DNA of 64,000 nt. It comes from an uncultured Bacteroidota bacterium. Its GTDB lineage: Bacteria > Bacteroidota > Bacteroidia > Bacteroidales > P3. Shown in pieces: positions 12,060 to 63,135 of the stretch. Each line of letters begins with the position of its first letter. The stretch's first letter is position 1. The notes below the pieces were generated by a model. That model did not search any database. It worked only from the letters and a program-made list of their open reading frames with translations, and was not told the DNA's origin. A program made the translations under genes and the position numbers. The DNA is taken from contig CACYPU010000001.1 of NCBI GenBank assembly GCA_902776365.1, positions 248,001-312,000 on the forward strand, given 5' to 3'.

Positions 12060-13130
12060 ATGACTCCAAAAGAACTCGGATATTACATGCCCGCCGAATG
12101 GGCCCGCCACGAGGCCACCTGGCTCACCTATCCCAAGAACCCCGATTCCTGGCCCGGCAAGATAGAGACCATCTATCCCTCCTACCACCTCTTTGTCAAG
12201 ACGCTGGCGGAGTGCGAGATGGTGCATATCAATGTCGACGATGACACGATGCTCCAGCATGTCAAGAAGGAACTCGAGGCCATCGGCACCAACATGCAGA
12301 ACATCACCCTGCATATCATCCCAAGCAACGACGCCTGGTGCCGCGACCACGGGCCCGCATTTTTGGTAAGGAGTGCAGGGGAGTGCGCTCCGAGGGCCAT
12401 TGTCAACTGGAACCATAACGCCTGGGGCGGCAAATACCCCTACGACCTCGACACCCAGGTACCTGTCCGCATCCATGAATATCTCATCTCTCACCTTTCA
12501 CCTTTCACCTTGTTCGAGCCCAACATCGTGATGGAAGGTGGCAGCATCGACGTCAACGGCTGCGGCGACCTCCTCACCACCACCTCGTGCCTCCTCAACC
12601 CCAACCGCAATCCGCAGCTCGACCAGGACCAGATAGAAGGTTATCTCCGCGACTACTATGGTGTGGAGAACATCATCTGGCTGGGCGACGGCATCGTGGG
12701 TGACGACACCGACGGCCACGTCGACGACCTCTCGCGCTTTGTGTCGCCCGACACCATCGTCACCGCCGTCGAGGAGGACGCCTGGGACGAGAACTACGAA
12801 CCCCTTCAAAAAAACCTCCGTATGCTCAACCGCTGTCGCCTGGCCAATGGCAAGCAGCCCACCATCGTCGAACTCCCCATGCCCGACCTCGTCTTCTACA
12901 ACAACCAGCGCCTGCCCGCCTCTTACGCCAATTTCTACATCGCCAACGATAAAGTCATCTTCCCCACCTACCGCTGCCTCGCCGACAACCAGGCCGCCTA
13001 CATCCTCGAGGCTCTCTTCCCCGACCGCGAAATCATCGGCATCGACTCCACCGACATCATCTGGGGCCTCGGCTCCTTCCACTGCCTTTCCCAGCAAATG
13101 CCCTTGGCAGAGGTGAAAGGTGAGAGGTGA
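12060..13130 (+). CDS. aguA: agmatine deiminase
   Basis: Converts agmatine to N-carbamoylputrescine, the substrate of aguB immediately upstream. 356 residues of the guanidino-group-modifying fold: MPAEWARHEATWLTYPKN at the N-terminus, SNDAWCRDHGPAF, the EGGSIDVNG block, GDDTDGHVDDLSRF with the catalytic His, and a C-terminal GLGSFHCLSQQMP with the nucleophilic Cys. Two segments are coded by repeat words: VRSAGECAP after the WCRDHGP motif (GGAGTGC words) and LISHLSPFTLF before EGGS (CTTTCACC words), both in loops between conserved blocks. The last codons (VKGER) lie in the left arm of the next palindrome. Putrescine from this operon would feed polyamine and wall synthesis. Confidence 0.95.
   Translation: MTPKELGYYMPAEWARHEATWLTYPKNPDSWPGKIETIYPSYHLFVKTLAECEMVHINVDDDTMLQHVKKELEAIGTNMQNITLHIIPSNDAWCRDHGPAFLVRSAGECAPRAIVNWNHNAWGGKYPYDLDTQVPVRIHEYLISHLSPFTLFEPNIVMEGGSIDVNGCGDLLTTTSCLLNPNRNPQLDQDQIEGYLRDYYGVENIIWLGDGIVGDDTDGHVDDLSRFVSPDTIVTAVEEDAWDENYEPLQKNLRMLNRCRLANGKQPTIVELPMPDLVFYNNQRLPASYANFYIANDKVIFPTYRCLADNQAAYILEALFPDREIIGIDSTDIIWGLGSFHCLSQQMPLAEVKGER
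12370..12386. repeat. GGAGTGC words inside aguA
   Basis: GGAGTGCAGGGGAGTGC, two copies of the GGAGTGCAA family word, in frame and coding the RSAGECA segment. Confidence 0.55.
12487..12512. repeat. CTTTCACC words inside aguA
   Basis: Three tandem CTTTCACC-type words in frame, coding the SHLSPFTL segment between two conserved agmatine deiminase blocks. Confidence 0.75.
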
Positions 13131-13235
13131 AAGGTGAGAGGTATTTGTTTTAAAAAAAAAGAAAAATAAAATGTTTAAGAAAATCAACTTATTACTAGCA
13201 GTTCTTTCACCTTTCACCTTTCACCTTTCACCTTG
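13110..13235. repeat. GGTGAAA-word palindrome bridging aguA and the S41 protease
   Basis: The left arm (GAGGTGAAAGGTGA repeated, 13110-13142) contains the aguA stop codon. The right arm (four CTTTCACC words, 13204-13235) encodes the hydrophobic part of the protease signal peptide. The start codon of the protease at 13171 sits in the loop of the predicted hairpin. Confidence 0.88.
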
Positions 13236-14763
13236 TTTTGCCCAGAGTCCCATTATCCCCGACACCCTCACTGCCGGACAGATACGGGTCGACGAGGTGA
13301 TGAAACTCATCGACGGCAACTACACCGAGGCTCCCGACATGGACCGTCTCTCCACCGAGGCCATCAACGCCATGCTCAAGACCCTCGACCCCCACAGCGT
13401 CTATATCCCCGCCAAGGACGTGGAACGTGCCAACGAAGGCCTTCAGGGCAACTTCGAAGGTGTCGGCATCTCGTTCCAAATCATCGAGGACACGATTGTG
13501 GTGCAGTCGGTCATCGCCGGCGGCCCTTCCGAGAAGGTGGGCATCGAGGTGGGTGACAAGCTGATTCGCATCGACGGTGAACCCGCCACGGGCGACAGCA
13601 TCAACAACCAGTTCGTCTTCAACCACCTGCGTGGAAAGAAAGGCACTGTTGTCAACATCGATATCCAACGTCAAGGCACCATCTATACCTTTGAAATCAC
13701 CCGCGACAAGGTGCCCATTTATTCCATTGACACATGGTTCATGGCCGACGACACCATCGGCTATATCCGCCTCATCCGTTTCGCCCGCACCTCCGTCGAC
13801 GAGTTTCGCAAGGCTCTCTCTTCCTTGCAGAAACAGGGTATGAAGGCCCTCATCCTCGATCTCCGCGGCAACACCGGCGGCTTCCTCGACGTCGCCTACA
13901 ACCTCGCCAACGAGTTTCTTGAGCGTAACCAACTCATAGTCTATCAGGAAGGTCGCCGCACCCCGCGACAGAATTTCCGTTCCAATGGCAGAGGGAAATT
14001 CAGAAACGGTCGTCTTGTCGTCCTCATCGACGAAGGCTCCGCATCGGCCTCCGAGATTGTCTCTGGCGCCGTGCAGGATTGGGATCGCGGCACCCTCATT
14101 GGCCGTCGCTCTTTCGGCAAAGGCTTGGTGCAGCGCATGTTCCAGCTCTCCGACGGTGGACAGATACGTCTCACGACGGCACGCTACTACACCCCCTCGG
14201 GCCGCTGCATCCAGCGTCCCTATGACGAAGGCTCCGACGCCTACCGCGACGACATCTCCCAGCGCTACAAAAACGGCGAGCTCGTCAATGCCGACTCCAT
14301 CCATTTCGTCGACTCGCTGATGTACAAGACTGCCGGCGGCCGCACCGTCTATGGCGGTGGCGGCATCATGCCCGACATCTTCGTACCCATGGACACCATG
14401 CGACTCTCCGACTACTTCATCTCCCTCCGAGGCAAAGGCCTCCTCAACAGCGTGCCCCTGCAGTGGGCCGACGCCCACCGCAACGACCCTGAGGTGAAGA
14501 CCTTCGAGCTCTTCCTCCAGAACTACGACCGCTTCAATCTCGACGTCATCCTCACCGATGCCGCCATCCAGAAAGGTGTCGTCCGCGACACCGAGAAGGA
14601 AGCTCTGGAGCCTGAACGTACGAAGCACAGCGACGAGTATATGCACCTGTTGCTCAAGGCCCAAGTGGCCAAAGACCTCTTCGGCATCGACTACTACTAC
14701 AAGGTGATGAAAGACACCGACGCCCCCTACCTCCGCGCCCTCGATTTCCTCCGCCAGAAGTAA
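13171..14763 (+). CDS. C-terminal processing protease, peptidase family S41
   Basis: A periplasmic serine protease of the Prc/CtpA type that cleaves the C-termini of envelope proteins, 530 residues. After the signal peptide comes an N-terminal helical part, a PDZ domain (about 85-170, containing GVGISFQIIEDTIVVQSVI), and the catalytic domain with LILDLRGNTGGF, SASEIVSGAVQDWDRG (Ser nucleophile in GSASAS) and RRSFGKGLVQ (general-base Lys). The signal peptide is odd: MFKKINLLLAVLSPFTFHLS, in which LSPFTFHLSP is coded by the CTTTCACC repeat. It follows aguA by 40 bases and may be cotranscribed with it. Confidence 0.93.
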   Translation: MFKKINLLLAVLSPFTFHLSPCFAQSPIIPDTLTAGQIRVDEVMKLIDGNYTEAPDMDRLSTEAINAMLKTLDPHSVYIPAKDVERANEGLQGNFEGVGISFQIIEDTIVVQSVIAGGPSEKVGIEVGDKLIRIDGEPATGDSINNQFVFNHLRGKKGTVVNIDIQRQGTIYTFEITRDKVPIYSIDTWFMADDTIGYIRLIRFARTSVDEFRKALSSLQKQGMKALILDLRGNTGGFLDVAYNLANEFLERNQLIVYQEGRRTPRQNFRSNGRGKFRNGRLVVLIDEGSASASEIVSGAVQDWDRGTLIGRRSFGKGLVQRMFQLSDGGQIRLTTARYYTPSGRCIQRPYDEGSDAYRDDISQRYKNGELVNADSIHFVDSLMYKTAGGRTVYGGGGIMPDIFVPMDTMRLSDYFISLRGKGLLNSVPLQWADAHRNDPEVKTFELFLQNYDRFNLDVILTDAAIQKGVVRDTEKEALEPERTKHSDEYMHLLLKAQVAKDLFGIDYYYKVMKDTDAPYLRALDFLRQK

Positions 14764-14767
14764 AAGA

Positions 14768-14830
14768 GTTGGTAGTTGAAAGTTGGTAGTGGGTAGCATT
14801 CTACCCCGAGTGTTATTCACTGCCGACTAC
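14768..14830. repeat. GGTAGT-word palindrome (degenerate copy)
   Basis: Left arm GTTGGTAGTTGAAAGTTGG and GGTAGTGGGTAGC, then the core ATTCTACCCCGAGTG. The right arm is decayed (CACTGCCGACTAC). The core is almost identical to that of the copy at 18806-18876. Confidence 0.8.
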
Positions 14831-14881
14831 TTAAAGATTTATAGTCGACGCAATCGGCTGTAAGTTAGTCTTTTCGACCTC

Positions 14882-14943
14882 TGTTCTTTCATTGTTCTTT
14901 CATTGTTCTTTCATTTTAATGGGAAAACAATGGGAAAACAGTG
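14882..14943. repeat. TTCTTTCATTG / AATGGGAAAAC mirrored repeats
   Basis: Three tandem copies of an 11-base word TGTTCTTTCAT face two copies of AATGGGAAAAC; CATTGTT and AACAATG can pair. It sits in the 478-base gap between the S41 protease and the barrel gene (14764-15241). Apart from this, the degenerate repeat before it and a promoter at 15131, nothing recognisable is present in that gap. Confidence 0.6.
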
Positions 14944-15130
14944 GTGAAAAAGAAAGGGATAGGTGTGTGAGGATGGAGAAAAATGTTTTCTCGTCTACAA
15001 TATGTGCCGACTGATACAAATCAAGAAATACCAACTAATTTTAATTGTGACGAAAAAAACTGGATATCAAACGATTACTCCCTTCCTTGTAAATATAGCA
15101 AATTTTTCATTTTCAAATGAAAAAAAGTCG

Positions 15131-15138
15131 TATCTTTG
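15131..15138 (+). promoter_or_regulatory. -7 promoter box upstream of the barrel protein
   Basis: TATCTTTG followed by CA, about 104 bases before the ATG at 15242, leaving a fairly long leader (15146-15241). Confidence 0.7.
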
Positions 15139-15241
15139 CACCCATAAACCTAATGTTAAACAACAGTCGTCTGGCAGATTTATGGGTTCTGTTCGGGTGG
15201 CCCCAAAGTGAATAAATAAAACCCACCATGATAAAGTTGTT

Positions 15242-16075
15242 ATGAAAAAGAGTTTGTTTTTTATCTTTTCTGTTCTTGCTATGGTCTCGGCTAGGGGACA
15301 GGTTCAGTACCATGTGGCGGACGTGCAGGTGATGTACGACGTGATGCGCCGCATGCCCAATCTCACGGGCGAATTCCTTTTCCGCAACGGACACAGCGCC
15401 TTCTCGGCGGAAATCAATGTTTTCCCCAAGTTTTACAAGTTTTCTTACAACCAAGATAACCCCCAGTCAAACATCGAGGCAAGGCTTGCCTATACCTATT
15501 TCTTCCGCGAGGGGATGAAGGGGTGGGGTATCCACGCCGGTTGGGACGGTGCTTTCTATCAGGCCGGACTTCATGTTGTGGACCCCAGCGCATACCAACC
15601 CTATAGGAGTTTTTTCCATGAGCTGGAGGACTTCTATTTCATCGGCCCGGAATACATGTACAGCAACAGCCGTGGAACGACGATCGAATACCGCCTCCTG
15701 TTGGGATACAATCTCAACTTTGCCTGCCCGATGGCCAAGTTCAAATTCCTGTGGGATGTCCCCGACCTCTTTGGTCTGACGGGTTTGTCGTTCATGGGCC
15801 GCTATACATTGTCGCTCGGCTCGCACTATGAGTTTCCTGTCGACAAGAAAAATGTTCCGTGGGCCTCGCAGGGCGAAATCACCCTCTTCTACAACACCGC
15901 CAGTCTTTTCGACGGCCGTGGCGCGGGCCACTATCTGGGCCGCGACGGGTTGGGGGTATTCCTCAAACTGCTTTACACCGACTTCCATCCCTCCGGCTGG
16001 CACAGCGGCGAGGACTACGGCGACAACTATGAAAGTACCCTCACCCCCTGCATAGGCCTGCGGTACGACTTCTGA
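15242..16075 (+). CDS. outer-membrane beta-barrel protein, DUF5020-like
   Basis: 277 residues with the signal peptide MKKSLFFIFSVLAMVSARGQ and many alternating amphipathic strands rich in Tyr, Phe and Gly (IEARLAYTYFFREGMKGWGI, SFMGRYTLSLGSHYEF). It ends in the aromatic signature typical of barrels (GLRYDF). The pattern resembles the Bacteroidota DUF5020 family, which is related to Tsx-like nucleoside channels; this assignment is from memory of the family and is moderate. It is transcribed alone between its own promoter and a terminator. Confidence 0.75.
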   Translation: MKKSLFFIFSVLAMVSARGQVQYHVADVQVMYDVMRRMPNLTGEFLFRNGHSAFSAEINVFPKFYKFSYNQDNPQSNIEARLAYTYFFREGMKGWGIHAGWDGAFYQAGLHVVDPSAYQPYRSFFHELEDFYFIGPEYMYSNSRGTTIEYRLLLGYNLNFACPMAKFKFLWDVPDLFGLTGLSFMGRYTLSLGSHYEFPVDKKNVPWASQGEITLFYNTASLFDGRGAGHYLGRDGLGVFLKLLYTDFHPSGWHSGEDYGDNYESTLTPCIGLRYDF

Positions 16076-16093
16076 GAGAGAAGGCAATAGAAG

Positions 16094-16134
16094 AAAAAAC
16101 TGGCCGGCAAACCTTCTGTCGGGCAGTTTTTTTT
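16094..16134 (+). terminator. intrinsic terminator after the barrel gene
   Basis: AAAAAACTGGCCGGC, loop, GTCGGGCAGTTTTTTTT. The stem has one G-G mismatch and is flanked by A and T runs. Confidence 0.88.
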
Positions 16135-16155
16135 GTCTATATTATAAAATATTTG

Positions 16156-16163
16156 TATATTTG
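16156..16163 (+). promoter_or_regulatory. -7 promoter box for the methylmalonyl-CoA operon
   Basis: TATATTTG followed by CA, about 100 bases before the mce ATG, and just after the previous terminator. Confidence 0.72.
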
Positions 16164-16264
16164 CATTTTCATACTTGGCGTCTTGTGGCGCCTAAGGGTA
16201 TGATTGTTAGTGGAATGAATAATATGGATAATTAATATAATAAATAATAAAAACACAAAAAGAT

Positions 16265-16672
16265 ATGACACCTTCACACATTGAACACATTGGCATTGCT
16301 GTGACCAACCTCGATGAGGCTATCCGCTACTGGGAGGACGTTATGGGTCTGAAGTGCTATGCCATCGAAGAAGTTAAGGACCAGAAAGTGAAGACCGCTT
16401 TCTTCCGCTGCGGTGACGTGAAAATCGAGCTCCTGGAGCCCACCTGCCCCGAGAGCACCATCGCCGCTTTCATTGAGAAGAACGGTGGCAAGGGTGGCAT
16501 GCACCACATCGCTTTCGCTATGGAGAACACCGACCAGGCCCTGAACGAGGCCAAGGAGAAGGGTGTGCGCCTCATCGACCAGCAGAGCCGTGGCGGCGCC
16601 GAAGGGCTCCACATCGGCTTCCTGCACCCCAAGAGCACCCTGGGCGTCCTCACTGAGTTCTGCTGCAAGTAA
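16265..16672 (+). CDS. mce: methylmalonyl-CoA epimerase
   Basis: Interconverts the R and S forms of methylmalonyl-CoA, linking the mutase to the decarboxylase. 135 residues in two beta-alpha-beta-beta-beta modules of the glyoxalase fold. Metal ligands and catalytic acids are in HIEHIGIAVTNLDEA, KIELLEP and MHHIAFAMEN, with the C-terminal TLGVLTEFC. It is the first gene of the six-gene methylmalonyl-CoA decarboxylase cluster, ahead of mmdA. Confidence 0.95.
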   Translation: MTPSHIEHIGIAVTNLDEAIRYWEDVMGLKCYAIEEVKDQKVKTAFFRCGDVKIELLEPTCPESTIAAFIEKNGGKGGMHHIAFAMENTDQALNEAKEKGVRLIDQQSRGGAEGLHIGFLHPKSTLGVLTEFCCK

Positions 16673-16683
16673 AAAAAAGTTAT

Positions 16684-16754
16684 TAGTTGGTAGTGGGTAG
16701 TGTGTAGCACTTGTCCACGATTGCTATCCACTATCCACTGCCCACTACCCACTA
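16684..16754. repeat. GGTAGTG-word palindrome between mce and mmdA
   Basis: Left arm AGTTGGTAGTGGGTAGTG, core GTAGCACTTGTCCACGATTG, right arm CTATCCACTATCCACTGCCC and further CCACTAC words. Fills the whole mce-mmdA gap. Confidence 0.88.
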
Positions 16755-16768
16755 AAAAAAATAAAATT

Positions 16769-18328
<1,560 letters not shown>

Positions 18329-18332
18329 GATT

Positions 18333-18431
18333 AAGGTTGAAAAGGTTCGCTTCGCTGAAAAGGTTAAAAGGGTTCATGCAAACAATCCATCACCTTTAAA
18401 ACCTCTTAAACCTTTTAAACCCTTTAAACAA
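18333..18431. repeat. GGTTAAAA-word palindrome after mmdA
   Basis: Left arm AAGGTTGAAAAGGTTCGCTT then GAAAAGGTTAAAAGGGTTC, core ATGCAAACAATCCATCACC, right arm of TTTAAAACC, TCTTAAACC and TTTTAAACC words. The sub-core GGTTCGCTTCGCT recurs at 61424 and nearly so at 20349. Confidence 0.9.
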
Positions 18432-18472
18432 AAGAAAATAATTATTAACCAATTTAATAAAACATCAAAAAA

Positions 18473-18802
18473 ATGAAGAAAGTATTTTTCACCGCTTTTG
18501 CCGCTCTGGCATTTGCTTTCACTATGACCGCCTGCGGCGGCGACAATGGTAACACCGACAGCACCGCTGACAGCACCAAGGTTGCTACCGAGCAGCCCTG
18601 CGAGCACAAGTGCGCCCACGAGGGTGACACCACCCACTGCTGCAAGGCCGACACCAACCATTGCTGCAAGGCCGAAGGCCAGGAGTGCAAACACCAGTGC
18701 AAGGAAGGCCAGGAAGGCTGCAAGCACCAGTGCAAAGAAGGCCAGGAAGGCTGCAAGCACCAGTGCAAAGAAGGCGAAAAGAAAGAGTGCTGCAAAAAGT
18801 AA
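18473..18802 (+). CDS. cysteine-rich repeat lipoprotein inside the decarboxylase operon
   Basis: A 109-residue lipoprotein (lipobox TAC, Cys21) whose mature part is hydrophilic and extremely rich in Cys, Lys, His and Glu. Besides the lipidated cysteine there are 14 more and seven histidines: two HCCKA units followed by three copies of an 11-residue unit CKHQCKEGQEG (residues 72-104, bases 18686-18784, a 33-base tandem repeat), ending in CCKK. This suggests metal binding or a redox-active, metallothionein-like envelope protein, but no family was recognised. It lies between mmdA and mmdD, separated from each by palindromic repeats, so it may be a passenger rather than a complex subunit. Confidence 0.8.
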   Translation: MKKVFFTAFAALAFAFTMTACGGDNGNTDSTADSTKVATEQPCEHKCAHEGDTTHCCKADTNHCCKAEGQECKHQCKEGQEGCKHQCKEGQEGCKHQCKEGEKKECCKK

Positions 18803-18805
18803 TTT

Positions 18806-18876
18806 AGTTGGTAGTTGACAGTTGGTAGTGGGTAGCATTCTACCCCGAGCGCTATCCACTACCCACTACCTACTAG
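18806..18876. repeat. GGTAGTG-word palindrome before mmdD
   Basis: Left arm AGTTGGTAGTTGACAGTTGG and GGTAGTGGGTAGC, core ATTCTACCCCGAGCG, right arm CTATCCACTACCCACTACC. Third copy of this family in the window. Confidence 0.9.
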
Positions 18877-18907
18877 TTTTTTTGATGTTTACAATTAAAC
18901 AAGAACA

Positions 18908-19885: not shown

Positions 19886-19886
19886 T

Positions 19887-20327: not shown

Positions 20328-20329
20328 AT

Positions 20330-20434
20330 TGGTTAAAAAGGTTGAAAGGGTTTGCTTCGCTTAAAAGGTTAAAAAGGTTCATGCAAACAATCAGTCACCT
20401 TTAAAACCTTTAAAACCCTTAAAACCTCTTAAAC
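20330..20434. repeat. GGTTAAAA-word palindrome between mmdC and mmdB
   Basis: Left arm GGTTAAAAAGGTTGAAAGGG, TTTGCTTCGCTTAAAAGG, core TTCATGCAAACAATCAGTCA, right arm of TTTAAAACC and CTTAAAACC words. Near-identical core to 18333-18431. Confidence 0.9.
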
Positions 20435-20445
20435 ATAAGAAAAAT

Positions 20446-21615: not shown

Positions 21616-21627
21616 GAGTAAATAAGT

Positions 21628-21725: not shown

Positions 21726-21738
21726 CATAACGCAATAG

Positions 21739-24120: not shown

Positions 24121-25047
24121 TTAATTGTTGTTCATTCTTTTTCTGAGGTAGAGGATACAGTCGATGTTGCGTGGCACCTGCAGGTCCATCATGCCGCTCT
24201 CGATGCCGATGACATGGCCTTGCTTGACGGCACTGAGGACGTTGTAGGGCTTCATGCCGCAGAAGGCGGCAGAATCCTCGCGACGCACAATGATGTAGTC
24301 GGGGTCCTCCTTCATCAAGGCTTCGAGGCTGTAGCTCCAGCCGTCGATGTTTTCGGCGATGTTATGTCCGCCGGCCATACGGATGATGTCGTTGATGAAA
24401 GTGTTGCCCCCAGAGGTGTAGTTGCCACCAGAGCCAAAGCCTACGACATAGTACACCTTTGGGGTGATTGTGTGATTGTGTGATTGCGTTATTGCGTTAG
24501 AGTTTGGCGCGTTGGCCTCTAACGCATTAACACGTTCAAGCATTAACGCATTTAATGAGTCGGCTTCCTTCTCTTTGTCCACCAGTTTCCCGATGGCAGC
24601 GATGTTTTCATAAAGAGCCTCGAACTTGGGTTTCTCGATGATGCACACAATCGGGATGCCCATGGCGTCGAGCTGGTCGGTGATTTTCTTGCTCACCATC
24701 GAGCCGCTGATGACCAAGTCGGGTTCCAGAAAGAGTATGCGCTCGATATTCATGTCGCTGATGCCCCCGATGCTGGGAATGCGTTCAGCTTCAGCTGGGT
24801 ATACGCAGAAGTCGGTACGTCCCACCAGCAGGTTTTCTGCCCCCAGGGCAAACAGAATCTCCGTCACCGCTGGCGATGTGGAGACCACGCGATGCGGATG
24901 GGTCGGCACCACCACGGTGCGGCCATAGTCGTCGGTGACAGTGTCGTTGCTTGATTGCCTGAGTGTTTGATTGCCTGAGTGGCCGCAAGCCACCAGCAAT
25001 ACACTGAACACTAAACACTGAACACTAAACACTAAGAACTTACGCAT
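24121..25047 (-). CDS. periplasmic substrate-binding lipoprotein, BtuF/FecB-like
   Basis: A 308-residue class III solute-binding protein for corrinoids or iron chelates. Typical features are the VVSTSPAVTEILFALGAENLLVGRTDFC block, the long central helix region and the C-terminal part with YIIVRREDS. The lipoprotein signal is unusual: FLVFSVQCLVFSVLLVACG, where FSVQCLVFSV comes from tandem repeat words. Two further repeat-coded segments follow: GNQTLRQSSNDT after the lipobox and NSNAITQSHNHTITP in the middle (24464-24550). No permease or ATPase gene is adjacent. The start overlaps fabG by eight bases. Confidence 0.85.
   Translation of the reverse strand: MRKFLVFSVQCLVFSVLLVACGHSGNQTLRQSSNDTVTDDYGRTVVVPTHPHRVVSTSPAVTEILFALGAENLLVGRTDFCVYPAEAERIPSIGGISDMNIERILFLEPDLVISGSMVSKKITDQLDAMGIPIVCIIEKPKFEALYENIAAIGKLVDKEKEADSLNALMLERVNALEANAPNSNAITQSHNHTITPKVYYVVGFGSGGNYTSGGNTFINDIIRMAGGHNIAENIDGWSYSLEALMKEDPDYIIVRREDSAAFCGMKPYNVLSAVKQGHVIGIESGMMDLQVPRNIDCILYLRKRMNNN
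24464..24550. repeat. GTGATTG / GCGTTA mirrored words inside the btuF-like gene
   Basis: GTGATTGT tandem words, TGCGTTATTGCGTTAGAG, then CTCTAACGCATTAACACG and CATTAACGCA as the mirror arm. Both arms are within the reading frame and code NSNAITQSHNHTITP and neighbouring residues. Confidence 0.75.
24947..25036. repeat. TTGATTGCC and AACACTGAACACTAA words in the btuF-like signal region
   Basis: TTGATTGCCTGAGTGTT tandem words at 24947-24982 and AACACTGAACACTAA tandem words at 25001-25036. The second array codes the FSVQCLVFSV hydrophobic core of the lipoprotein signal peptide. Confidence 0.75.
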
Positions 25048-53425: not shown

Positions 53426-54508
53426 ATGAAGGGAGTGCAAGGAGTGCAAGGAGTACAGGGAGTGCAGGACAAATGTATCCGTTGGAGGTATTGTCTTGCA
53501 CTCCTTGCACTCCTTGTACTCCCACACTCCTCTTTTTCGCAGATTGCCGGCCTGAACACCCTGACGGTGCTGGATCTCAGCAGTCAGGCGAGGACGTCGG
53601 GTTTGGGTTTCGATTATCTGTCAATTTTCGATGTCGACCCGACCATTGCCATCGACAACCCGTCGCTGTTGCGGCGCGAGATGTGTGGCATTGGCTCGCT
53701 GAGTTTCGTCTCCGTCTTCGACGGCACCTCGACAGGGTCGCTCTCTTATGCCCATCATTTCAAGAAGATTGGAACGCTGATGTTCTCGTTCCGTTTCAAC
53801 AGTTATGGTTCCTTCGAGGGCTATGACGAGGAGGAGATGCCGATAGGCAAGACGAGTGCTGCCGACTACGCATTGACTGTGGGATGGGGGACATGGCTTG
53901 ACTCGAACCTCAGCGTGGGTGTGAATTTCAAGCCCGTGCTGTCGCACTATGATGTCTATACCGCCTTTGCGGTGGCTTTCGATGTGGCGGGCAGCTATGT
54001 CAGCGACGACCGCAGCCTTGCGGCCACGGTGATGGCTCGCAACATCGGGGCACAGATTGCCACCTTCGACGGCACAAGCGAGACACTGCCTTTTGAGCTG
54101 AGTGCCGAGGTGTCGTACAAACTGGCCAAGGCACCCTTCCGTTTCTTCTTTGCTGCCACGGAGTTGCAGCGGTGGAACCTGCGTTATGAAGACCCTAACA
54201 ACCCCACCACGACAGTGGACCCCTTCACTGGCGAGGTGGAGAAGGAGGGCTGGTTCGAGGGCTTCCTCGACAATCTGATGCGCCACACCCAGTTTGGCGT
54301 TGAGCTCAATCTTGGCAAGGCATTCTTTGCTCGTGTGGGTTACAGCTACCGCCAGACGGCAGAGATGAGCGCCATCGATGCCATCAACTTCAGCGGCTTC
54401 TCCTTCGGCTTCGGTTTGCGGACCAAAAAGTTTGAATTCAGCTACGCCCACCGCAACTATCACCTCGGCCAGGCTCCAGACTTCTTCACTCTCAGTTACC
54501 GCTTTTAA
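53426..54508 (+). CDS. porQ: type IX secretion system protein PorQ
   Basis: Outer-membrane barrel protein of the FadL-like PorQ/PorV group, needed for attachment or sorting of type IX cargo. 360 residues: LTVLDLSSQARTSGLGFD, NPSLLRREMCGIGSLSFV, KAPFRFFFAATELQRWNLRY and a C-terminal aromatic end (FFTLSYRF). The N-terminus is remarkable: M-K followed by four GVQ units, then DKCIRWRYC and the hydrophobic LALLALLVLP before SSFSQ. Everything from residue 3 to about 34 is coded by one GGAGTGCAA palindrome, so the right arm supplies the signal-peptide core. No other in-frame ATG exists nearby, so this start is forced unless translation uses a rare codon. Confidence 0.88.
   Translation: MKGVQGVQGVQGVQDKCIRWRYCLALLALLVLPHSSFSQIAGLNTLTVLDLSSQARTSGLGFDYLSIFDVDPTIAIDNPSLLRREMCGIGSLSFVSVFDGTSTGSLSYAHHFKKIGTLMFSFRFNSYGSFEGYDEEEMPIGKTSAADYALTVGWGTWLDSNLSVGVNFKPVLSHYDVYTAFAVAFDVAGSYVSDDRSLAATVMARNIGAQIATFDGTSETLPFELSAEVSYKLAKAPFRFFFAATELQRWNLRYEDPNNPTTTVDPFTGEVEKEGWFEGFLDNLMRHTQFGVELNLGKAFFARVGYSYRQTAEMSAIDAINFSGFSFGFGLRTKKFEFSYAHRNYHLGQAPDFFTLSYRF
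53431..53530. repeat. GGAGTGCAA-word palindrome coding the porQ signal peptide
   Basis: Left arm: GGAGTGCAA, GGAGTGCAA, GGAGTACAGG, GAGTGCAGG words (53432-53468). Core GACAAATGTATCC ... GTATTGTC. Right arm: TTGCACTCC, TTGCACTCC, TTGTACTCCC (53494-53522). Same core ends as 11942-12047, but here wholly within a reading frame. Confidence 0.92.
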
Positions 54509-54531
54509 TCTGCGAGAATTTATGTTATGGT

Positions 54532-54608: not shown

Positions 54609-54617
54609 ATAAGCCGT

Positions 54618-55562: not shown

Positions 55563-55566
55563 TTGT

Positions 55567-56442: not shown

Positions 56443-56443
56443 A

Positions 56444-56469
56444 AAAGACTGGCATTTTTGCCAGTCTTT
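56444..56469 (+). terminator. hairpin after the lipoprotein gene
   Basis: AAAGACTGGC, loop ATTTTT, GCCAGTCTTT: a perfect 10-base stem starting 2 bases after the stop. The T-run is short, followed by GAAAGATATTTTTT. Confidence 0.75.
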
Positions 56470-56518
56470 GAAAGATATTTTTTCGCTCATATTCAACGAA
56501 TGACTTTTAATTTTTAGT

Positions 56519-57222
56519 ATGAAGAAAATCGTGATTCTATGCACTACGTTGCTCGCTTTCGCAGCCCCGTCATGGGCACAGGGCGATTGGGTAGATTTAG
56601 GGCTGCCCAGCGGGCTGCTGTGGGCAACTCATAATGTGGGCGCCAACAAACCAGAGGAGTTTGGCGACCATTTCTCATGGGGTGAGACCGAACCCAAATC
56701 GGAATACCGAAAATTGCCAACTACCGTTATTTCGGCGGCGATGAGAATCATATCATAAAATACTGTTATAATCCTGAATATGGTAAGGATGGCTATATCG
56801 ATACCCTCGCCGTCCTTGAACCCATGGATGATGCAGCCACTGTCAGATGGGGTAACGGCGTCCGTACTCCGACGATGGATGAGTGGTATGAACTGATGGA
56901 AAACACAGAGGGGAAAGCCGACACATTAAACGGCGTTAGTGGTTATCGGTTCACTGCAACCAACGGCAATTCAATCTTTCTGCCAGCGGCTGGAGCATAT
57001 ATGGGAGGTCAGTATGAATATTGGGAAGATTTTTCTCCCGATTGGCTCAAGAAATTATATAACGCCAATGTGTGGGGCTACTATTGGGCAAGTACACTCA
57101 ATACGTATTCCCCAAAAGGTATCGTGGCATTCTTTTTTTGCCATAATACGTGTTATGTGCAGGGGTATACAGGAGGAAGATATATGGGGTTTAGTGTCCG
57201 TCCTGTGCGTTCAGTCCGATAG
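56519..57222 (+). pseudogene. FISUMP (Fibrobacter major paralogous domain) secreted protein, frameshifted
   Basis: Signal peptide MKKIVILCTTLLAFAAPSWA, then the domain start WVDLGLPSGLLWATHNVGAN and HFSWGETEPKSEYRK. The frame is then lost and would stop at 56756. Reading from the other frame gives NYRYFGGDENHIIKYCYNPE and onward without break through TPTMDEWYELM, to YWASTLNTYSPKG and MGFSVRPVR, ending at 57222. One missing A in the AAAA run at 56710-56713 would join both halves into one protein of about 234 residues. Could be a real broken gene or a base-calling error. The domain is frequent in surface proteins of Bacteroidota; its role is unclear. Confidence 0.8.
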
Positions 57223-57241
57223 GGTCCGTTCAATAGACAAA

Positions 57242-57275
57242 CAGAAAAGCGAAACTATCTGGTCTCGCTTTTCTG
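57242..57275. terminator. bidirectional terminator between the FISUMP gene and glyS
   Basis: CAGAAAAGCGA, 12-base loop, TCGCTTTTCTG followed by CTTTT; on the minus strand also followed by a short T-rich stretch. Lies between two convergent genes. Confidence 0.8.
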
Positions 57276-57296
57276 CTTTTAGTATTGTATCGGTGA

Positions 57297-58811
57297 TTAC
57301 AACTTGGCTTTGAGGTAGGCGGGCAGCTGGTCGATGCTGACGCGCTCCTGCTGCATGGTGTCGCGGTGGCGCACGGTGACCGCGTTGTCGGTCAGCGTGT
57401 CATTGTCGACGGTGATGCAGAAGGGGGTGCCGATGGCGTCCTGACGGCGGTAGCGGCGGCCGATGGCGTCCTTCTCGTCGTACTGCACCATCATGTCGGG
57501 CATCAGCAGGTGCTGAATCTCGCGGGCCTTCTCTGGCAGGCCGTCTTTCTTCACCAAAGGCAGCACGGCGGCCTTGTAGGGCGCCAGCTTGGCGGGGAGG
57601 CTGAGCACCACGCGGGTGCTGCCGTCCTCCAGGGTCTCCTCCTTCAGCGAGTGGCTGAAGATAGCCAGGAAGGTGCGGTCGACACCGATGGAGGTCTCGA
57701 TGACATATGGCGTGTAGCTCTCGTTGAGCTCGCTGTCGAAGTACTGCAGCTTCTTGCCGCTGAACTCGCTGTGACGCGAGAGGTCGAAGTCGGTGCGGCT
57801 GTGAATACCTTCGAGTTCCTTGAAGCCGAAGGGGAACTTGAACTCAATGTCGGTGGCGGCGTTGGCATAGTGGGCCAGCTTCTCGTGGTCGTGGTAGCGG
57901 TAGCAGTCGGCCGGGATGCCGAGGGCGAGGTGCCACTGCAGACGCTCCTCTTTCCAGTGCTTGAACCACTCGAGCTCCGTTCCGGGACGCACGAAGAACT
58001 GCATCTCCATCTGCTCGAACTCGCGCATGCGGAAGATGAATTGGCGGGCGACAATCTCGTTGCGGAAGGCCTTGCCAATCTGGGCGATGCCGAAGGGAAT
58101 CTTCATGCGTCCGCTCTTCTGCACGTTGAGGAAGTTGACGAAAATGCCCTGTGCTGTCTCGGGACGCAGATAGAGGGTATCGGAATCGTCAATCACACTG
58201 CCCATCTTGGTGGCGAACATCAGGTTGAACTGGCGCACGTCGGTCCAGTTGCGCGTGCCACTGATGGGGCATACGATTTCGAGGTCGAGGATGATCTGCT
58301 TGAGGCCGTCGAGGTCGTTGCGGTTCATGCAGTCGGCATAGCGTTCGTGGATTTCGTCAATCTTCTTCTGGTGTTCGAGCACACGGGCGTTGGTGGTGAC
58401 GAACTGCTGGCGGTCGAAGGCGTCGCCGAAGCGTTTGTGGGCCTTCTCGCATTCCTTCTCGATCTTCTCCTCAATCTTGGCGATATGGTCCTCGATGAGC
58501 ACGTCGGCGCGGTAGCGCTTCTTGCTGTCCTTGTTGTCGATGAGGGGGTCGTTGAAGGCGTCAACGTGGCCGCTGGCTTTCCAGATGCGCGGGTGCATGA
58601 AGATGGCGCTGTCGAGGCCCACGATGTTCTCGTGCATCTGCACCATGGCCTTCCACCAGTACTGCTTGATATTATTCTTCAGTTCCACACCCAACTGGCC
58701 GTAGTCGTAGACGGCGGCGAGGCCGTCGTAAATCTCAGAACTCGGGAAGATGAAACCGTATTCCTTGGCGTGAGCCACCACTTTTTTGAAGAAATCGTCT
58801 TGATTTGCCAT
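57297..58811 (-). CDS. glyS: glycyl-tRNA synthetase (alpha2 type)
   Basis: Class II synthetase of 504 residues charging tRNA-Gly. N-terminal FIFPSSEIYDGLAAVYDYGQ is diagnostic of the homodimeric form. Motif 2 is FRNEIVARQFIFRMREFEQM and motif 3 lies at IETSIGVDRTFLAIFSHS-like VIETSIGVDRTFLAIF. The C-terminal anticodon domain starts near LAPYKAAVLPLVKK. It follows gcvH on the same strand with a terminator between, so glycine-related genes sit side by side without clear cotranscription. Confidence 0.96.
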   Translation of the reverse strand: MANQDDFFKKVVAHAKEYGFIFPSSEIYDGLAAVYDYGQLGVELKNNIKQYWWKAMVQMHENIVGLDSAIFMHPRIWKASGHVDAFNDPLIDNKDSKKRYRADVLIEDHIAKIEEKIEKECEKAHKRFGDAFDRQQFVTTNARVLEHQKKIDEIHERYADCMNRNDLDGLKQIILDLEIVCPISGTRNWTDVRQFNLMFATKMGSVIDDSDTLYLRPETAQGIFVNFLNVQKSGRMKIPFGIAQIGKAFRNEIVARQFIFRMREFEQMEMQFFVRPGTELEWFKHWKEERLQWHLALGIPADCYRYHDHEKLAHYANAATDIEFKFPFGFKELEGIHSRTDFDLSRHSEFSGKKLQYFDSELNESYTPYVIETSIGVDRTFLAIFSHSLKEETLEDGSTRVVLSLPAKLAPYKAAVLPLVKKDGLPEKAREIQHLLMPDMMVQYDEKDAIGRRYRRQDAIGTPFCITVDNDTLTDNAVTVRHRDTMQQERVSIDQLPAYLKAKL

Positions 58812-58840
58812 AGAATTAATTAAGAATTAAGAACTAAGAA

Positions 58841-58869
58841 AATGGCTGTCCTTAAGGGCAGCCATTCTT
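58841..58869 (-). terminator. intrinsic terminator of gcvH
   Basis: On the minus strand: AATGGCTGCCC, TTAA loop, GGACAGCCATT followed by TTCTTAG. It is also preceded by an A-rich run. About 20 bases after the gcvH stop. Confidence 0.8.
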
Positions 58870-58887
58870 TTTTAGACGTTGTTCTTT

Positions 58888-59265
58888 TTAGGCACCGATT
58901 TTGGCGGTGTAGGCTGCGGCGTCCATGAGGGCGTCGATGTCGGCCATGTTCTCGGGTTTGATTTTGATGATCCAGCCATTGCCATAGGGGTCGGCGTTGA
59001 TGGCGGAAGCATCTTCGAGGGCGGTGTTGAACTCCACGACCTCACCCTTCACGGGCATCAGCAGGTCGGCCACAGTCTTCACAGCCTCGACAGAGCCAAA
59101 GGGCTCGCCGGCCTCGACGGTGTCGCCTTCGCAGGTGACGTCAACAAAGACGATGTCGCCAAGCTCGTGCTGAGCGTAATCAGTGATACCAACGAAAGCA
59201 AACTCGCCTTCGATACGCACCCATTCGTCGTCCTGGGTGTACTTCAGATTTGCAGGAATGTTCAT
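58888..59265 (-). CDS. gcvH: glycine cleavage system H protein
   Basis: Lipoyl carrier that shuttles the aminomethyl group from GcvP. 125 residues: [20 protein letters not shown] at the N-terminus, the lipoylated lysine in [17 protein letters not shown], and NPYG-type [17 protein letters not shown]. Typical length. LplA (54618-55562) can lipoylate it. Has its own promoter and terminator, separate from gcvP. Confidence 0.96.
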
Positions 59266-59310
59266 ATTCTTATTTAATTATATGTATTAATTCGTTTACT
59301 AAAACAGATG

Positions 59311-59318
59311 CAAAAATA
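59311..59318 (-). promoter_or_regulatory. -7 promoter box for gcvH
   Basis: TATTTTTG followed by CA on the minus strand, about 46 bases before the gcvH ATG. Confidence 0.68.
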
Positions 59319-59391
59319 CACATTTTTTTTTATATCGGAGAAAAAAATGAAAAAAAAATCAAAATTTTTTCTCCAATTGAAAAAAAAGCGC

Positions 59392-59399
59392 TATTTTTG
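59392..59399 (+). promoter_or_regulatory. -7 promoter box for rho
   Basis: TATTTTTG followed by CA. Leaves an untranslated leader of about 118 bases before the rho ATG at 59524, long enough for autoregulation by Rho, which is known for rho genes in other bacteria. Confidence 0.65.
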
Positions 59400-59523
59400 C
59401 AACGTCAATTTGAGGACAAAAAGAGTGCGCCGTTCTTTGTGAATTGTTGATAATGAAATTTTTGTCCAGTTTTCCCCTTACAAGTTAACCCTCGTCAACG
59501 TATCAACTTATCATCTATTATAC

Positions 59524-61410
59524 ATGTATAGTAAATCTGAACTCACTGCCAAGGCCCATATCGAACTCATCGAGATGGCAAAAGAAATGGGCATCTCCAA
59601 AGCCACGCGCATGGATGCGCAAGAACTGGTCTACAAGATTCTCGACCACCAGGCCTCGAATCCTGAAAAGAATGAAAATGTAAAAATGAAAAATGAAAAT
59701 GAGGCTCCTCAGGAAAGGAGGCGTCAGCATTTGAAACCCAAGCTGCTCGCCGAGTCGACACTGAAAAACCCTGAACTCCACAAGAGCCGGAACAAGAATG
59801 AAAATGTGAAGATGAAGAATGATAATCCGGCCACCCCGGCTCCCCAACCGCAGTCTCCAACGTCCCAGCTCAATATCATGGACCTCGAGATGCCTGTGGT
59901 GCCCGAGATGCCTGAATGGAAGGTCGACAGCGGGAAATGGAAAGTGGAAAGTGCCGAAGTGAAAACCCCAGCCACCGAAATGACGGCAGAGGCTCCCAAG
60001 CCCGAGGCTCCCAAGCAGGAAGAGATGCCTGCGCAGCCCCAGAAGAAGAAACGTGGCCGTCCGCGCAAGAGCGCACAGGACAACCAGAACCCTCAGAACT
60101 CTCCGGCTCCTCAGAGCACTCAGAATACTCCGAATGCTCAAGAAAAACAGGAAACCCCGGAACCTCCGACTTACAAACCGGAACCTAAGCCGGAACCCAA
60201 GCCGGAGCATAGGCCTGAGCCCAAACCCGAGCAAAAACAGGAAAAGAAACAAGAGCAGAAGCCCGAGCAAAAGCGCGAATATCCCTTTGAGCACGAAGGT
60301 GTCATCGAGGCCGAAGGTGTCCTCGAGATGGTTCCCGACGGCTACGGCTTCCTCCGCTCCTCCGACTACAACTACCTCTCGTCGCCCGACGATATCTACA
60401 TCTCGCCCGCCCAGATTCGCAACTACGGCCTCAAGACTGGCGATACCGTGCGTGGCAAGGTGCGTCCCCCTCGCGAAGGCGACAAATTCTTCCCCATGGT
60501 CAAGGTGCTCGAAATCAATGGTCTCTCGCCCGACCGCATCCGCGACCGCATCCCCTTCGAGAGCCTAACGCCGCTCTTCCCCAACCAGAAGTTCAAACTC
60601 ACCGGTCATCCGCAGGAGACCCTCTCCACCCGCATCATCGACCTCTTCACCCCCATCGGAAAAGGTCAGCGCGGCCTCATCGTCGCCCAACCCAAGACGG
60701 GTAAGACCACCCTTCTCAAGGAGGTGGCCAACGCCATCGCCTTCAACCACCCCGAAGTCTACCTCATGGTGCTGCTCATCGACGAGCGCCCCGAAGAGGT
60801 CACCGATATGCAGCGCTCCGTCAAAGCCGAGGTCATCGCCTCCACCTTCGACGAGCCCGCCGACCGTCACGTGCGCATCGCCAACATCGTCCTCGAAAAG
60901 GCCAAACGCCTCACTGAATGCGGTCACGACGTGATGATCGTGCTCGACTCCATCACTCGTCTGGCTCGCGCCTACAACACCGTGCAGCCCGCCTCTGGCA
61001 AGGTGCTCTCCGGCGGCGTCGAGGCCAACGCTCTCCAGAAACCCAAGCGCTTCTTCGGCGCTGCCCGCAAAATCGAAGGCGGCGGCTCCCTCACCATCAT
61101 CGCTACCGCCCTCACCGAGACGGGTTCCAAGATGGACGACGTCATTTTCGAGGAATTCAAGGGCACCGGCAACATGGAGCTGCAGCTCGACCGCAAACTC
61201 TCCAACCGCCGACTCTATCCTGCCATCGACCTCACCGCCTCCTCCACACGTCGCGACGACCTGCTGGTGAAGCCCGACATCCTCACCCGCAGTGTCGTGC
61301 TCCGCAACCACCTCACCGACCTCACACCCGTCGAGGCTATGGAATTCCTACAAAAGCAGATGTCCCACACCCGCGACAACGAGGAGTTCCTCTATACTAT
61401 GGATAAATAA
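59524..61410 (+). CDS. rho: transcription termination factor Rho with long disordered insertion
   Basis: ATP-dependent RNA helicase ending transcription. 628 residues versus 419 in E. coli. Residues 1-45 are the Rho N-domain ([20 protein letters not shown]). Residues 46-255 are a low-complexity insertion: two copies of a [11 protein letters not shown]-like motif coded by repeat words, an AT-hook-like [11 protein letters not shown], a Gln/Asn/Pro stretch and Lys/Pro/Glu repeats ([10 protein letters not shown]). Then the RNA-binding domain ([20 protein letters not shown]) and the ATPase core with P-loop [23 protein letters not shown], and the Q/R-loops near [20 protein letters not shown]. Large insertions are typical of Bacteroidota Rho. 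Confidence 0.96.
59671..59703. repeat. AAAATGA words inside rho, first copy
   Basis: AATGAAAATGTAAAAATGAA and AAATGAAAATGAG: tandem AAAATGA/AAAATGT words, in frame, coding [11 protein letters not shown]. The second copy at 59794-59826 codes [11 protein letters not shown]. Confidence 0.7.
59794..59826. repeat. AAAATGA words inside rho, second copy
   Basis: AAGAATGAAAATGTGAAGAT and GAAGAATGATAAT; a diverged copy of the array at 59671-59703, separated by 30 codons, in the same frame. Confidence 0.68.
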
Positions 61411-61415
61411 AAGTA

Positions 61416-61504
61416 AAAAGGGTTCGCTTCGCTTAAAAGGTTTAAAAGGGTTGCATAATGGCCCTCACCTCTTAAACCCCTTAAACCTTTTTAACCCCTT
61501 AAAC
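61416..61504. repeat. GGTTAAAA-word palindrome between rho and ltaE
   Basis: Left arm AAAAGGGTTCGCTTCGCTTA and AAAGGTTTAAAAGGG, core TTGCATAATGGCCCTCACC, right arm TCTTAAACCCCTTAAACC and TTTTTAACCCC. The GGTTCGCTTCGCT sub-core matches that at 18349. Confidence 0.88.
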
Positions 61505-61514
61505 CAAGAAAATA

Positions 61515-62579
61515 ATGAAACGAGGATTCGGTTCCGACAACCATTCGGGCATCAGCCCCGAGATACTGCAGGCCATCGCCGCCGCCAACGTCGACCATGC
61601 ACTGGCATACGGCGGCGACGAGTGGTGCGCCCGCACCGAACAGCTCTTCCGCGACCATTTCGGCCCCCAAGCCAAGGTCTATTTCGTCTTCAACGGCACC
61701 GGCGCCAACGTACTCTGCATCGACGCCATGTGCCGCTCCCACGAGGCTGTGGTGTGCGCCGAGACGGCACACATCAACGTCGACGAGTGCGGCGCCCCCC
61801 AGCGTGTCGTGGGTTGCCGTCTGCTCACCGTCGACACACCCGACGGCAAGCTCACCCCCGAGCTCGTCCGCACACGCCTCCACGGCTTCGGATTCGAGCA
61901 CCACTCGCAACCCAAGGCCATCAGCATCACCCAGAGCACCGAACTCGGCACACTCTATACCCTCGACGAGATACGCGCCCTTGCCGACCTCGCTCATTCC
62001 TACAATATGTATCTCCACATGGACGGCGCCCGCCTGGCCAACGCCGCCGTGGCCCTTAGATGCTCGTTCAAGGAGATGACCACCGACCTCGGCGTCGACT
62101 GCCTCTCCTTCGGTGGCACCAAGAACGGCATGCTCATGGGCGAGAGCTGCGTGATACTTAATCCCGCCCTCGACATCGACCTCAAATACCGCCGCAAGCA
62201 GATGACCCAGCTCTGCAGCAAGATGCGCTTCATCGCCGCCCAGTTCGAGGCCTACCTCACCACAGGCCTCTGGCGCCGCAACGCCGAGCACAGCAACGCG
62301 ATGGCGCAGCTGCTGAAAAAGGAACTGCAGGAGCTAATGTCCCAGCACTCCCCGGCACTCCCCAGCACTCCCCAGCACTCCACAATAAAAATCATGTACC
62401 CCGTTCAGGTCAACAGCGTCTTCGTCCAGCTCCCTGCCGAGGTGTGGCACGCGTTGCAGAAGGAATACTTCTTCTACGACTGGGACGAAGCCCAGAACGT
62501 CGTCCGCTGGATGTGCTCCTTCGACACCACCGAGGACGACATCCACTCTTTCGTTTCCGCCCTGAAACGCTTACTTTGA
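61515..62579 (+). CDS. ltaE: low-specificity L-threonine aldolase
   Basis: PLP enzyme splitting threonine into glycine and acetaldehyde. 354 residues of the fold-type I aldolase family: FGSDNHSGISPEILQAI, AYGGDEWCARTEQLFRDHFG, DGARLANAAVAL, and the PLP lysine in CLSFGGTKNGMLMGE. Between the barrel helix region and the small C-terminal domain, the segment SQHSPALPSTPQHS is coded by CCCAGCACTCC repeat words. Glycine produced could feed the glycine cleavage system. Confidence 0.93.
   Translation: MKRGFGSDNHSGISPEILQAIAAANVDHALAYGGDEWCARTEQLFRDHFGPQAKVYFVFNGTGANVLCIDAMCRSHEAVVCAETAHINVDECGAPQRVVGCRLLTVDTPDGKLTPELVRTRLHGFGFEHHSQPKAISITQSTELGTLYTLDEIRALADLAHSYNMYLHMDGARLANAAVALRCSFKEMTTDLGVDCLSFGGTKNGMLMGESCVILNPALDIDLKYRRKQMTQLCSKMRFIAAQFEAYLTTGLWRRNAEHSNAMAQLLKKELQELMSQHSPALPSTPQHSTIKIMYPVQVNSVFVQLPAEVWHALQKEYFFYDWDEAQNVVRWMCSFDTTEDDIHSFVSALKRLL
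62341..62382. repeat. CCCAGCACTCC words inside ltaE
   Basis: CCCAGCACTCCCCGGCACTC and CCCAGCACTCCCCAGCACTC: four tandem 10-base words, one orientation, in frame, coding SQHSPALPSTPQHS. Related in form to the GCACTCC words of the GGAGTGCAA family. Confidence 0.75.
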
Positions 62580-62625
62580 ATTAAAAAAAAGAAAAAATAT
62601 TTTAATTTTTAATTCTTAATTTTAT

Positions 62626-63135
62626 ATGAAACGCATCGCCCTCATCCTCCTAATTTTCACCTTTCACCTTTCACCTTTCACCTTGAAGGCCCAGGATTTC
62701 ACCTTCGACGGAGTGAAGATGCTACAACCTGTAAGTCAGTTCAAGACCGATTTGGAGACCAAAGGCTATGTGGCCACAGCATCGTGGTACGAAGGCACCG
62801 AATACTGGTTCTCCGGCGTGTTCCTCGGACGCAGGCCCAATTATTTCAATGTCAGAGGATACAAGGATTACGTCATGGAGGTGAATGTGGCCTATTCTTT
62901 CGCCTCTATAAGCGAGGTCGACAAGTTCAAGCAGGAAGCTTTCGAACTTCTAAAAAAGACCTACCCCGACTTCAAGGCTCGTCAAGACGAGTATAGTTAT
63001 ATGTTGGAGGGCTCCACCGGCACCGTTTCCATCTACTGGGGATTTAAGGAAACATTCGCAGGAGGCGATATGATGTTCCCCGTAGAAGATGTCTATGTGG
63101 TATCCATTTTTTTCCAGCCGAAGAAGAAGAAATAA
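62626..63135 (+). CDS. small secreted protein with a repeat-coded signal peptide
   Basis: 169 residues. The N-terminus MKRIALILLIFTFHLSPFTL is the signal peptide, cleaved near LKAQ; its second half (FTFHLSPFTL) is coded by four CTTTCACC words. The mature part, about 145 residues, is compact with VKMLQPVSQFKTDLETKGYV, a WYEGTEYWFSGVFLGRR segment and a C-terminal VYVVSIFFQPKKKK. No family recognised. A terminator and a promoter separate it from feoB. Confidence 0.75.
   Translation: MKRIALILLIFTFHLSPFTLKAQDFTFDGVKMLQPVSQFKTDLETKGYVATASWYEGTEYWFSGVFLGRRPNYFNVRGYKDYVMEVNVAYSFASISEVDKFKQEAFELLKKTYPDFKARQDEYSYMLEGSTGTVSIYWGFKETFAGGDMMFPVEDVYVVSIFFQPKKKK
62654..62685. repeat. CTTTCACC repeat arm in the signal peptide gene at 62626
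   Basis: Four tandem CTTTCACC/TTTTCACC words. Only the right arm is present here; the same array forms part of the S41 protease signal peptide at 13204-13235. Confidence 0.85.

Follow-up and report, generated by a model that had tools for sequence, protein, structure and literature searches.

Dispersed short tandem arrays coding signal-peptide cores in an uncultured Bacteroidales bacterium and their differences between related species

Why are the hydrophobic cores of unrelated signal peptides coded by the same short repeated words? This question is raised by a 64,000-nucleotide (nt) stretch, hereafter the window (G000:C1:248001-312000), of the 2.23 Mb draft genome G000 of an uncultured Bacteroidales bacterium. 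A first-pass annotation had proposed that repeat words code the signal regions of an S41 protease, a small protein with predicted export (the 62626 protein), a BtuF-like lipoprotein and PorQ, and all four sites are as described there (Table 1). With at most one mismatch, CTTTCACCTTTCACC occurs 15 times in the window versus 0.00 expected, and AACACTAAACACT 3 times versus 0.04; genome-wide, exact matches of CTTTCACCTTTCACC (overlaps counted) number 33 on the forward and 30 on the reverse strand, compared with 5 and 3 for the reversed control. We report here that such words are dispersed through the genome, that within the coding DNA of G000 their arrays are concentrated in predicted signal peptides and lie there on one type of strand, that they overwrite existing signal peptides, and that different species carry different words at the same place.

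Short tandem arrays were called by a simple lag-match detector in the window plus 40 further stretches of G000 (860,144 bases), with a copy of this sample shuffled by a first-order Markov model as the null. The sample held 271 arrays and the Markov copy none. With periods mostly of 7 nt (127 arrays) or 14 nt (31 arrays) and a typical length of about 30 nt, the G000 arrays qualify as short tandem heptamer repeats of the bacterial kind, for which units of 5–11 nt with heptamers as the commonest are expected. Identical words recur at unrelated loci, led by AAAGGTG (28 arrays), AAAATTG (22), ACCCACT (11) and AAGAATT (10). When only arrays whose period is not a multiple of three (non-3n arrays) are considered, as in all placement counts below, the density is 5.5 per 20 kb in G000 and 3.5 in single 20 kb stretches taken from 20 further genomes of its genus, dropping to 0.55 across 20 genomes of other genera of the family, for which only array density was used because gene calls were too sparse (63 genes from 400 kb). 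Within the genus, three tandem copies of CTTTCACC are present in 15 of 99 genomes, compared with 5 of 247 taken from across the order (both counts including G000); three of TTTTCAA are present in 49 of the 99. The reversed control of CTTTCACC matches often in some species (29 and 20 times in the related genome G105), because the related word AAAGTGG/CCACTTT is the commonest one there. Repeat words thus differ between species. Among named genomes, the nearest matches to the S41 protein come from uncultured Bacteroidales or Bacteroidetes, many of them from ruminant gut samples, and the protein of "bacterium P3" is 66% identical to it.

Compared with random placement over coding DNA, the arrays of G000 are strongly over-represented in predicted signal peptides. 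Gene models based on a codon score, combined with a simple home-made rule, gave 625 genes of which 222 are signal-peptide-like, some of these probably being membrane anchors. Codons 3–30 of these 222 genes, about 2.4% of the coding DNA, carry 25 non-3n arrays in 17,304 bases (1.45 per kb), compared with 9 in 35,196 bases of other N-termini, 70 in 665,285 bases of other coding DNA and 129 in 142,359 intergenic bases (0.91 per kb). Uniform placement over coding DNA would put 2.5 arrays into signal peptides (p 4e-18), and with a stricter signal-peptide cut-off the count is 16 versus 1.9 expected. Arrays were found in 27 of the 222 signal-peptide genes and in none after 200 within-peptide codon permutations; a laxer array score gave 36 versus a permutation mean of 0.3. 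Judged by our rule, the array-coded N-termini qualify as predicted Sec signal peptides (type I or lipoprotein), for which a charged start, a hydrophobic stretch and a cleavage site or lipobox are expected. Among 28 array-bearing signal peptides, 21 have AQ within residues 15–42, 3 a lipobox and 4 neither, the AQ frequency being 60/159 in array-free signal peptides and 29/403 in other genes; the AQ motif agrees with the Q-rule given for Bacteroidetes in an excerpt of PMC5837995. Two words were also used to fetch 60 loci, of which 12 lie in signal peptides, 10 in genes, 34 in intergenic DNA and 4 elsewhere. For other species, this amounts to 10 in signal peptides (7 genomes) versus 8 inside genes, a count that omits G000's own loci (L229, L240, L249), L248 (which duplicates the array of L239) and L227 (probably a signal peptide whose start was miscalled), and that is silent on other words, as both fetch words were chosen for occurring in G000 signal peptides.

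Placement within signal peptides follows the strand. As 7 and 3 have no common factor, a heptamer word codes one repeating heptapeptide in every frame, and its usability is therefore set by the strand and not by the frame. The three main words account for 20 signal-peptide arrays (12, 4 and 4), every one of them read on the stop-free, pyrimidine-rich strand, which bears out the suggestion that signal peptides tolerate pyrimidine-rich readings. Among the listed words with stops on both strands, 37 of 40 arrays are intergenic, 2 internal, 1 C-terminal and none in a signal peptide. ACCCACT, which is stop-free and hydrophilic, was counted 3 times in N-termini outside the signal-peptide calls, and a further 8 arrays of it are internal to genes.

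We then compared the same signal peptides between relatives. An array of score at least 13 lies near the start in 12 of 81 S41 orthologs, and in one of these (L136) it precedes the start codon; the other 11 are at least 73% identical to the query and use the words CTTTCAC, TTTTCAA and AATTCTC, and their near relatives carry ordinary signal peptides. In a tree built from the mature S41 protein (35 rows), 27 rows are close, and the 11 of them that have an array require 10 state changes, no fewer than with shuffled labels (mean 10.1; 121 of 200 shuffles as low), four rows whose arrays lay upstream of the ATG (L102, L108, L113, L114) having been labelled array-free by hand. In the BtuF-like protein, G000, G095 and G110 each have an array of their own, all three differing, and G105 lacks one. 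When 36 array-bearing G000 N-termini were queried, 11 gave an ortholog of at least 60% identity in the DNA compared. Nine of these are predicted to be exported, including L038_12325 and L040_5020, which the rule had not called and whose lipobox-like ends were judged by eye, and each of the nine has a relative with a signal-peptide-like start lacking G000's word. In two cases (L036_4008 and L042_104) G105 carries another word, in the latter at equal length between conserved flanks. Where one species has a given array, its relatives thus often show another word or an ordinary signal peptide, and since word-free signal-peptide-like starts exist in relatives, arrays have recurrently overwritten signal peptides that were already there. 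The annotation's alternative that repeats create signal peptides finds no support here, and de novo creation of export was rejected for the cases compared; repeat-free relatives with the signal peptide coded by the same bases, which would have told against the proposed route, were not encountered in the cases examined.

Signal-peptide words also sit inside genes, some of them in variable loops, so that signal peptides are only part of the array distribution; together, the 25 arrays in signal peptides and the 70 in other coding DNA place arrays in frame in many genes. In 22 of 27 genomes, a loop of the PAD_porph protein, whose gene neighbours the S41 gene, is short; the G000 version is YLISHLSPFT, that of G061 YLTSHLSPFT and that of G095 and G105 YLVESxKWKAES, and in G110 (L089) the loop holds a complete left-and-right pair, IENLKLKIENS ... 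NNFQFSIFNFQ. An ABC protein gene has arrays at two loops, one of which reads QGVQGSTRECKT in G000, has nothing in G105 and holds other repeat-like peptides in G095 and G061, as seen at the peptide level.

Do the arrays form part of a larger structure? The repeats had been described as palindromic. Most arrays in signal peptides stand singly: a complementary partner of score at least 14 was found upstream of 4 of 28, versus 7 of 84 swapped-upstream controls (5/28 versus 8/84 at a score of at least 12), and a general palindrome model was rejected on these counts. The term "arm" suits PorQ and S41, the latter with a left arm upstream and an array that pairs over the start codon in G000 and one relative, and does not suit the BtuF-like and 62626 proteins, whose best upstream scores (7 and 5) are at control level. 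The general route into signal peptides outlined in the first-pass annotation is supported as regards the enrichment in G000, the strand and the overwriting, and unsupported as regards palindromic arms and creation. Arrays lying within 250 nt of each other form 46 neighbouring pairs in the G000 sample, and 18 of these are inverted. PorQ is the exception, in that both arms change their word together. An array of score at least 11 lies near the start in 18 of 30 porQ orthologs fetched. Complementarity between the h-region and its own upstream partner averages 15.2, versus 7.7 across word classes, and is higher for the own partner in 29 of 30 orthologs; the own pair reaches 12 in 22 of 30 orthologs versus 9.8% of cross-class pairs, with some single cross-class values equal to the own value. 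Selection that keeps the arms paired would produce this co-change, and so would a process in which one arm is copied from the other. Elsewhere in the genome, a porQ-like GVQ...LALL double array at G000:C2:312611-312739 matches the porQ N-terminus on both strands.

A longer unit is suggested by TGCGTCAGC, which is found exactly in 10 of 17 distinct signal cores before a word, a partly circular choice as the cores were picked by the peptide rule C-x-[AS]-[ILV]. Irrespective of the peptide, its copies in the G000 sample number 18, of which 5 are close to an array, one of these five (L033) being read in another frame, and it precedes three intergenic arrays in G105; including motif variants, it is present in 12 and 4 array flanks in the G000 and G105 samples, respectively. 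Its position near arrays hints that more than the array alone may be copied. The words flanking arrays for the most part continued arrays of 11-nt units.

Taken together, we consider it probable that these signal-peptide cores are dispersed words that are copied between loci and, within coding DNA, survive most often in the Sec h-region. Short tandem arrays of about 30 nt, mostly of 7-nt units, form the cores, their words drawn from a set that is scattered over the whole genome and is not the same from one species to the next. Copied from locus to locus, the words would replace short stretches of DNA, and selection would remove most placements within genes; the h-region would be the coding stretch where replacement survives most often, because only stop-free, uncharged and fairly hydrophobic residues are needed there. 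The copying step might be host recombination or template switching guided by similarity and followed by selection, a route favoured by the sharing of words between unrelated loci together with the enzyme searches described below. In a simpler account, arrays would land at random and survive wherever coding constraint is loose, with signal peptides having no further role. We regard such pure tolerance as somewhat doubtful, even though arrays do survive in variable loops and their density in signal peptides is similar to, and not clearly above, that in intergenic DNA. Moved into a signal peptide, intergenic arrays would be usable in only 20–40% of their strand-and-frame placements, and tolerance then predicts about 3–6 signal-peptide arrays (intergenic density x 17.3 kb x 0.20–0.40) where 25 were observed in G000, a rough estimate as intergenic DNA is itself constrained. 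The excess may stem from copying between signal peptides that is guided by their similarity, or from arrays being retained once the old h-region is gone. Several points weigh against copying with a preference for signal peptides. Measured against the density in intergenic DNA, G000 shows a weak excess (p 0.026; p 0.17 under the stricter signal-peptide cut-off). The count against random placement proposed at annotation is clear in G000 and not significant in the 472 kb sample of G105 (2 versus 0.83 expected, p 0.20), as tolerance would have it. The 6 signal-peptide arrays versus 0.88 expected in a pool of 20 other species of the genus are not independent, all but one listed case being S41 or BtuF-like and many of the stretches having been picked around these two genes. 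The signal-peptide rule is home-made, and the choice of starts, 63 of 625 of which were moved, may favour array-coded N-termini. Finally, copying is deduced from comparing the sequences of relatives.

Could the arrays instead belong to a small mobile element of REP- or MITE-like type, with hairpin arms and a core, moved by an enzyme in trans? Such an element would account for the inverted array pairs and for the presence of TGCGTCAGC near signal-peptide arrays, in more than one frame, and near intergenic ones. We nevertheless find it unlikely, given that words and unit lengths vary widely, that no constant ends were seen and that TGCGTCAGC lies near few arrays even with its variants. The Y1 transposase (PF01797) expected of a REP/RAYT system was found in 17 of 22 genomes, and neither it nor an RVT_1 reverse transcriptase was found in G100 and G107, two array-rich genomes (8 and 5 arrays per 20 kb stretch; 93–94% complete), although a very divergent enzyme could escape the profile search. 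Y1, or RVT_1 acting by telomerase-like templating, was accordingly rejected as a necessary cause. Selection on the mRNA, by which a start-region hairpin would control the translation of exported proteins at the expense of the signal peptide, agrees with the own-arm complementarity of porQ and with the pairing over the S41 start codon, and is in our view improbable: an upstream partner of score at least 14 is missing from 24 of the 28 signal-peptide arrays, and copying of one porQ arm from the other would yield the same pattern. Short tandem repeats can arise by slippage, and some arrays have a period of 9 or 12; all the same, chance in the form of low-complexity coding, local slippage or assembly errors has next to no credibility. 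Low-complexity coding was rejected by the codon permutations and by word sharing, purely local slippage is disfavoured by the words shared between unrelated loci, and arrays are carried by several separately named assembly sets (RUG, RGIG and UBA).

Several components of this system have precedents, which are compared here with excerpts of the respective papers. Rickettsia palindromic elements (RPE) are short dispersed repeats found in frame inside many proteins (PMC2229807), as the G000 arrays are; unlike RPE, which are single families of 105–146 bp, the arrays measure about 30 nt, comprise many words differing between species, mostly lack a partner arm and prefer signal peptides in G000, and the long RPE-type palindrome was not found among them. 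The enterobacterial repeat RU-2 partly codes one Yersinia signal peptide, that of YPO1552 (PMC2759123), one reported gene and one family, whereas here 27 of 222 sampled signal-peptide genes are concerned and words turn over between species. The heptamer TAACTGA occurs in tandem, in many copies per genome and often near start codons in Beggiatoaceae, Cyanobacteria and some Bacteroidetes (PMC4679880); it is one word, mainly intergenic or upstream of starts, in contrast to many words that also enter coding DNA. In mitochondria of Nematomorpha both arms of inverted repeats code protein (PMC6649704), as do both porQ arms, although those are perfect palindromes of up to 284 bp in conserved regions, compared with tandem-word arms in a variable N-terminus. 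Heptamer-derived satellite families occur in Bacteria (PMC6749651), where dispersal of non-coding satellites is described as rare, unlike that of the words studied here. In-frame repeats, a repeat-coded signal peptide, intergenic heptamers, satellites, coding palindromes and the Q-rule are thus already in print, and their combination here, in which one signal peptide carries different words in different species, amounts to a new form of them; no report of this pattern in Bacteroidales was found among the best-matching papers listed in searches of the open-access literature (most subscription journals and bioRxiv preprints being outside the scope of the search).

Signal peptides are usually seen as fast-drifting and gene-specific, and here they look like interchangeable parts made from dispersed repeats. 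More tentatively, the signal-peptide repertoire of the whole genus might be continuously rewritten by word copying, with signal peptides as the preferred entry, unrelated proteins sharing near-identical cores (CVSIIFNFQFSIFNS..AQ) and porQ-type loci rewriting both hairpin arms together, a broader possibility that we would not put at even odds. The many natural replacements within one genus make h-region tolerance and the origin of new N-termini countable. N-terminal similarity in these genomes also need not imply homology, as the 62626 protein illustrates. This protein has no match in either profile library (Pfam-type and NCBIfam) and no full-length match among 98 other genomes of the genus; besides G000's own places, a search with it returned 13 weak matches in nine other genomes, 8 of which end by residue 31, near its signal peptide. 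The weak matches elsewhere begin at that signal peptide.

Table 1. Genes and repeat arrays discussed in the text, in window coordinates.
Feature	Position	Strand	Details
ABC protein gene	573-2444	-	arrays at two loops, around 798-829 and 866-897
PAD_porph gene	12060-13130		adjoins the S41 gene upstream
CTTTCAC array within PAD_porph gene	12488..12511	+	codes ISHLSPFT in variable loop
AGGTGAA left array, complementary to S41 array	13109..13142	+	left arm 13111-13140; codes last residues EVKGER and stop of PAD_porph gene
S41 protease gene (ORF)	13171-14763	+	PF03572; N-terminus MFKKINLLLAVLSPFTFHLSPCFAQ
S41 signal-peptide codons	13171..13245	+	
S41 h-region array, CTTTCAC x4.4	13204-13234	+	codes LSPFTFHLSP
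BtuF-like lipoprotein gene	24121-25047	-	PF01497 (Peripla_BP_2); N-terminus MRKFLVFSVQCLVFSVLLVAC
BtuF-like signal-peptide codons	24990..25047	-	
BtuF-like array AACACTGAACACTAA	25001-25035	-	minus-strand reading LVFSVQCLVFSV
porQ gene	53426-54508	+	NCBIfam T9SS_PorQ, 289 bits (cut-off 220); arms code KGVQGVQGVQGVQ ... LALLALLVLP
porQ left arm, GGAGTGCAA units	53431-53457	+	codes GVQGVQGVQ
porQ right arm, TTGCACTCC units	53497-53523	+	codes LALLALLVL in h-region
Small secreted protein gene (ORF; predicted export)	62626-63135	+	N-terminus MKRIALILLIFTFHLSPFTLKAQ
Small secreted protein signal-peptide codons	62626..62694	+	
Small secreted protein array, TTTCACC	62655-62684	+	codes FTFHLSPFTL

Further repeats and variable sites were noted in and around these genes. 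The gap in front of the S41 gene (13143-13170) is absent in several relatives, in which the upstream gene runs into the ATG, and in others (among L071-L121) it is occupied by different heptamer arrays. At 62341-62381, a 10-nt CCCAGCACTC array lies in the gene at 61515-62579 and codes SQHSPALPSTPQHS. Tandem repeats of 24 and 33 nt (18626-18775) are found in the gene of a small predicted lipoprotein (18473-18802), which is rich in Cys, His and Lys and varies between species.

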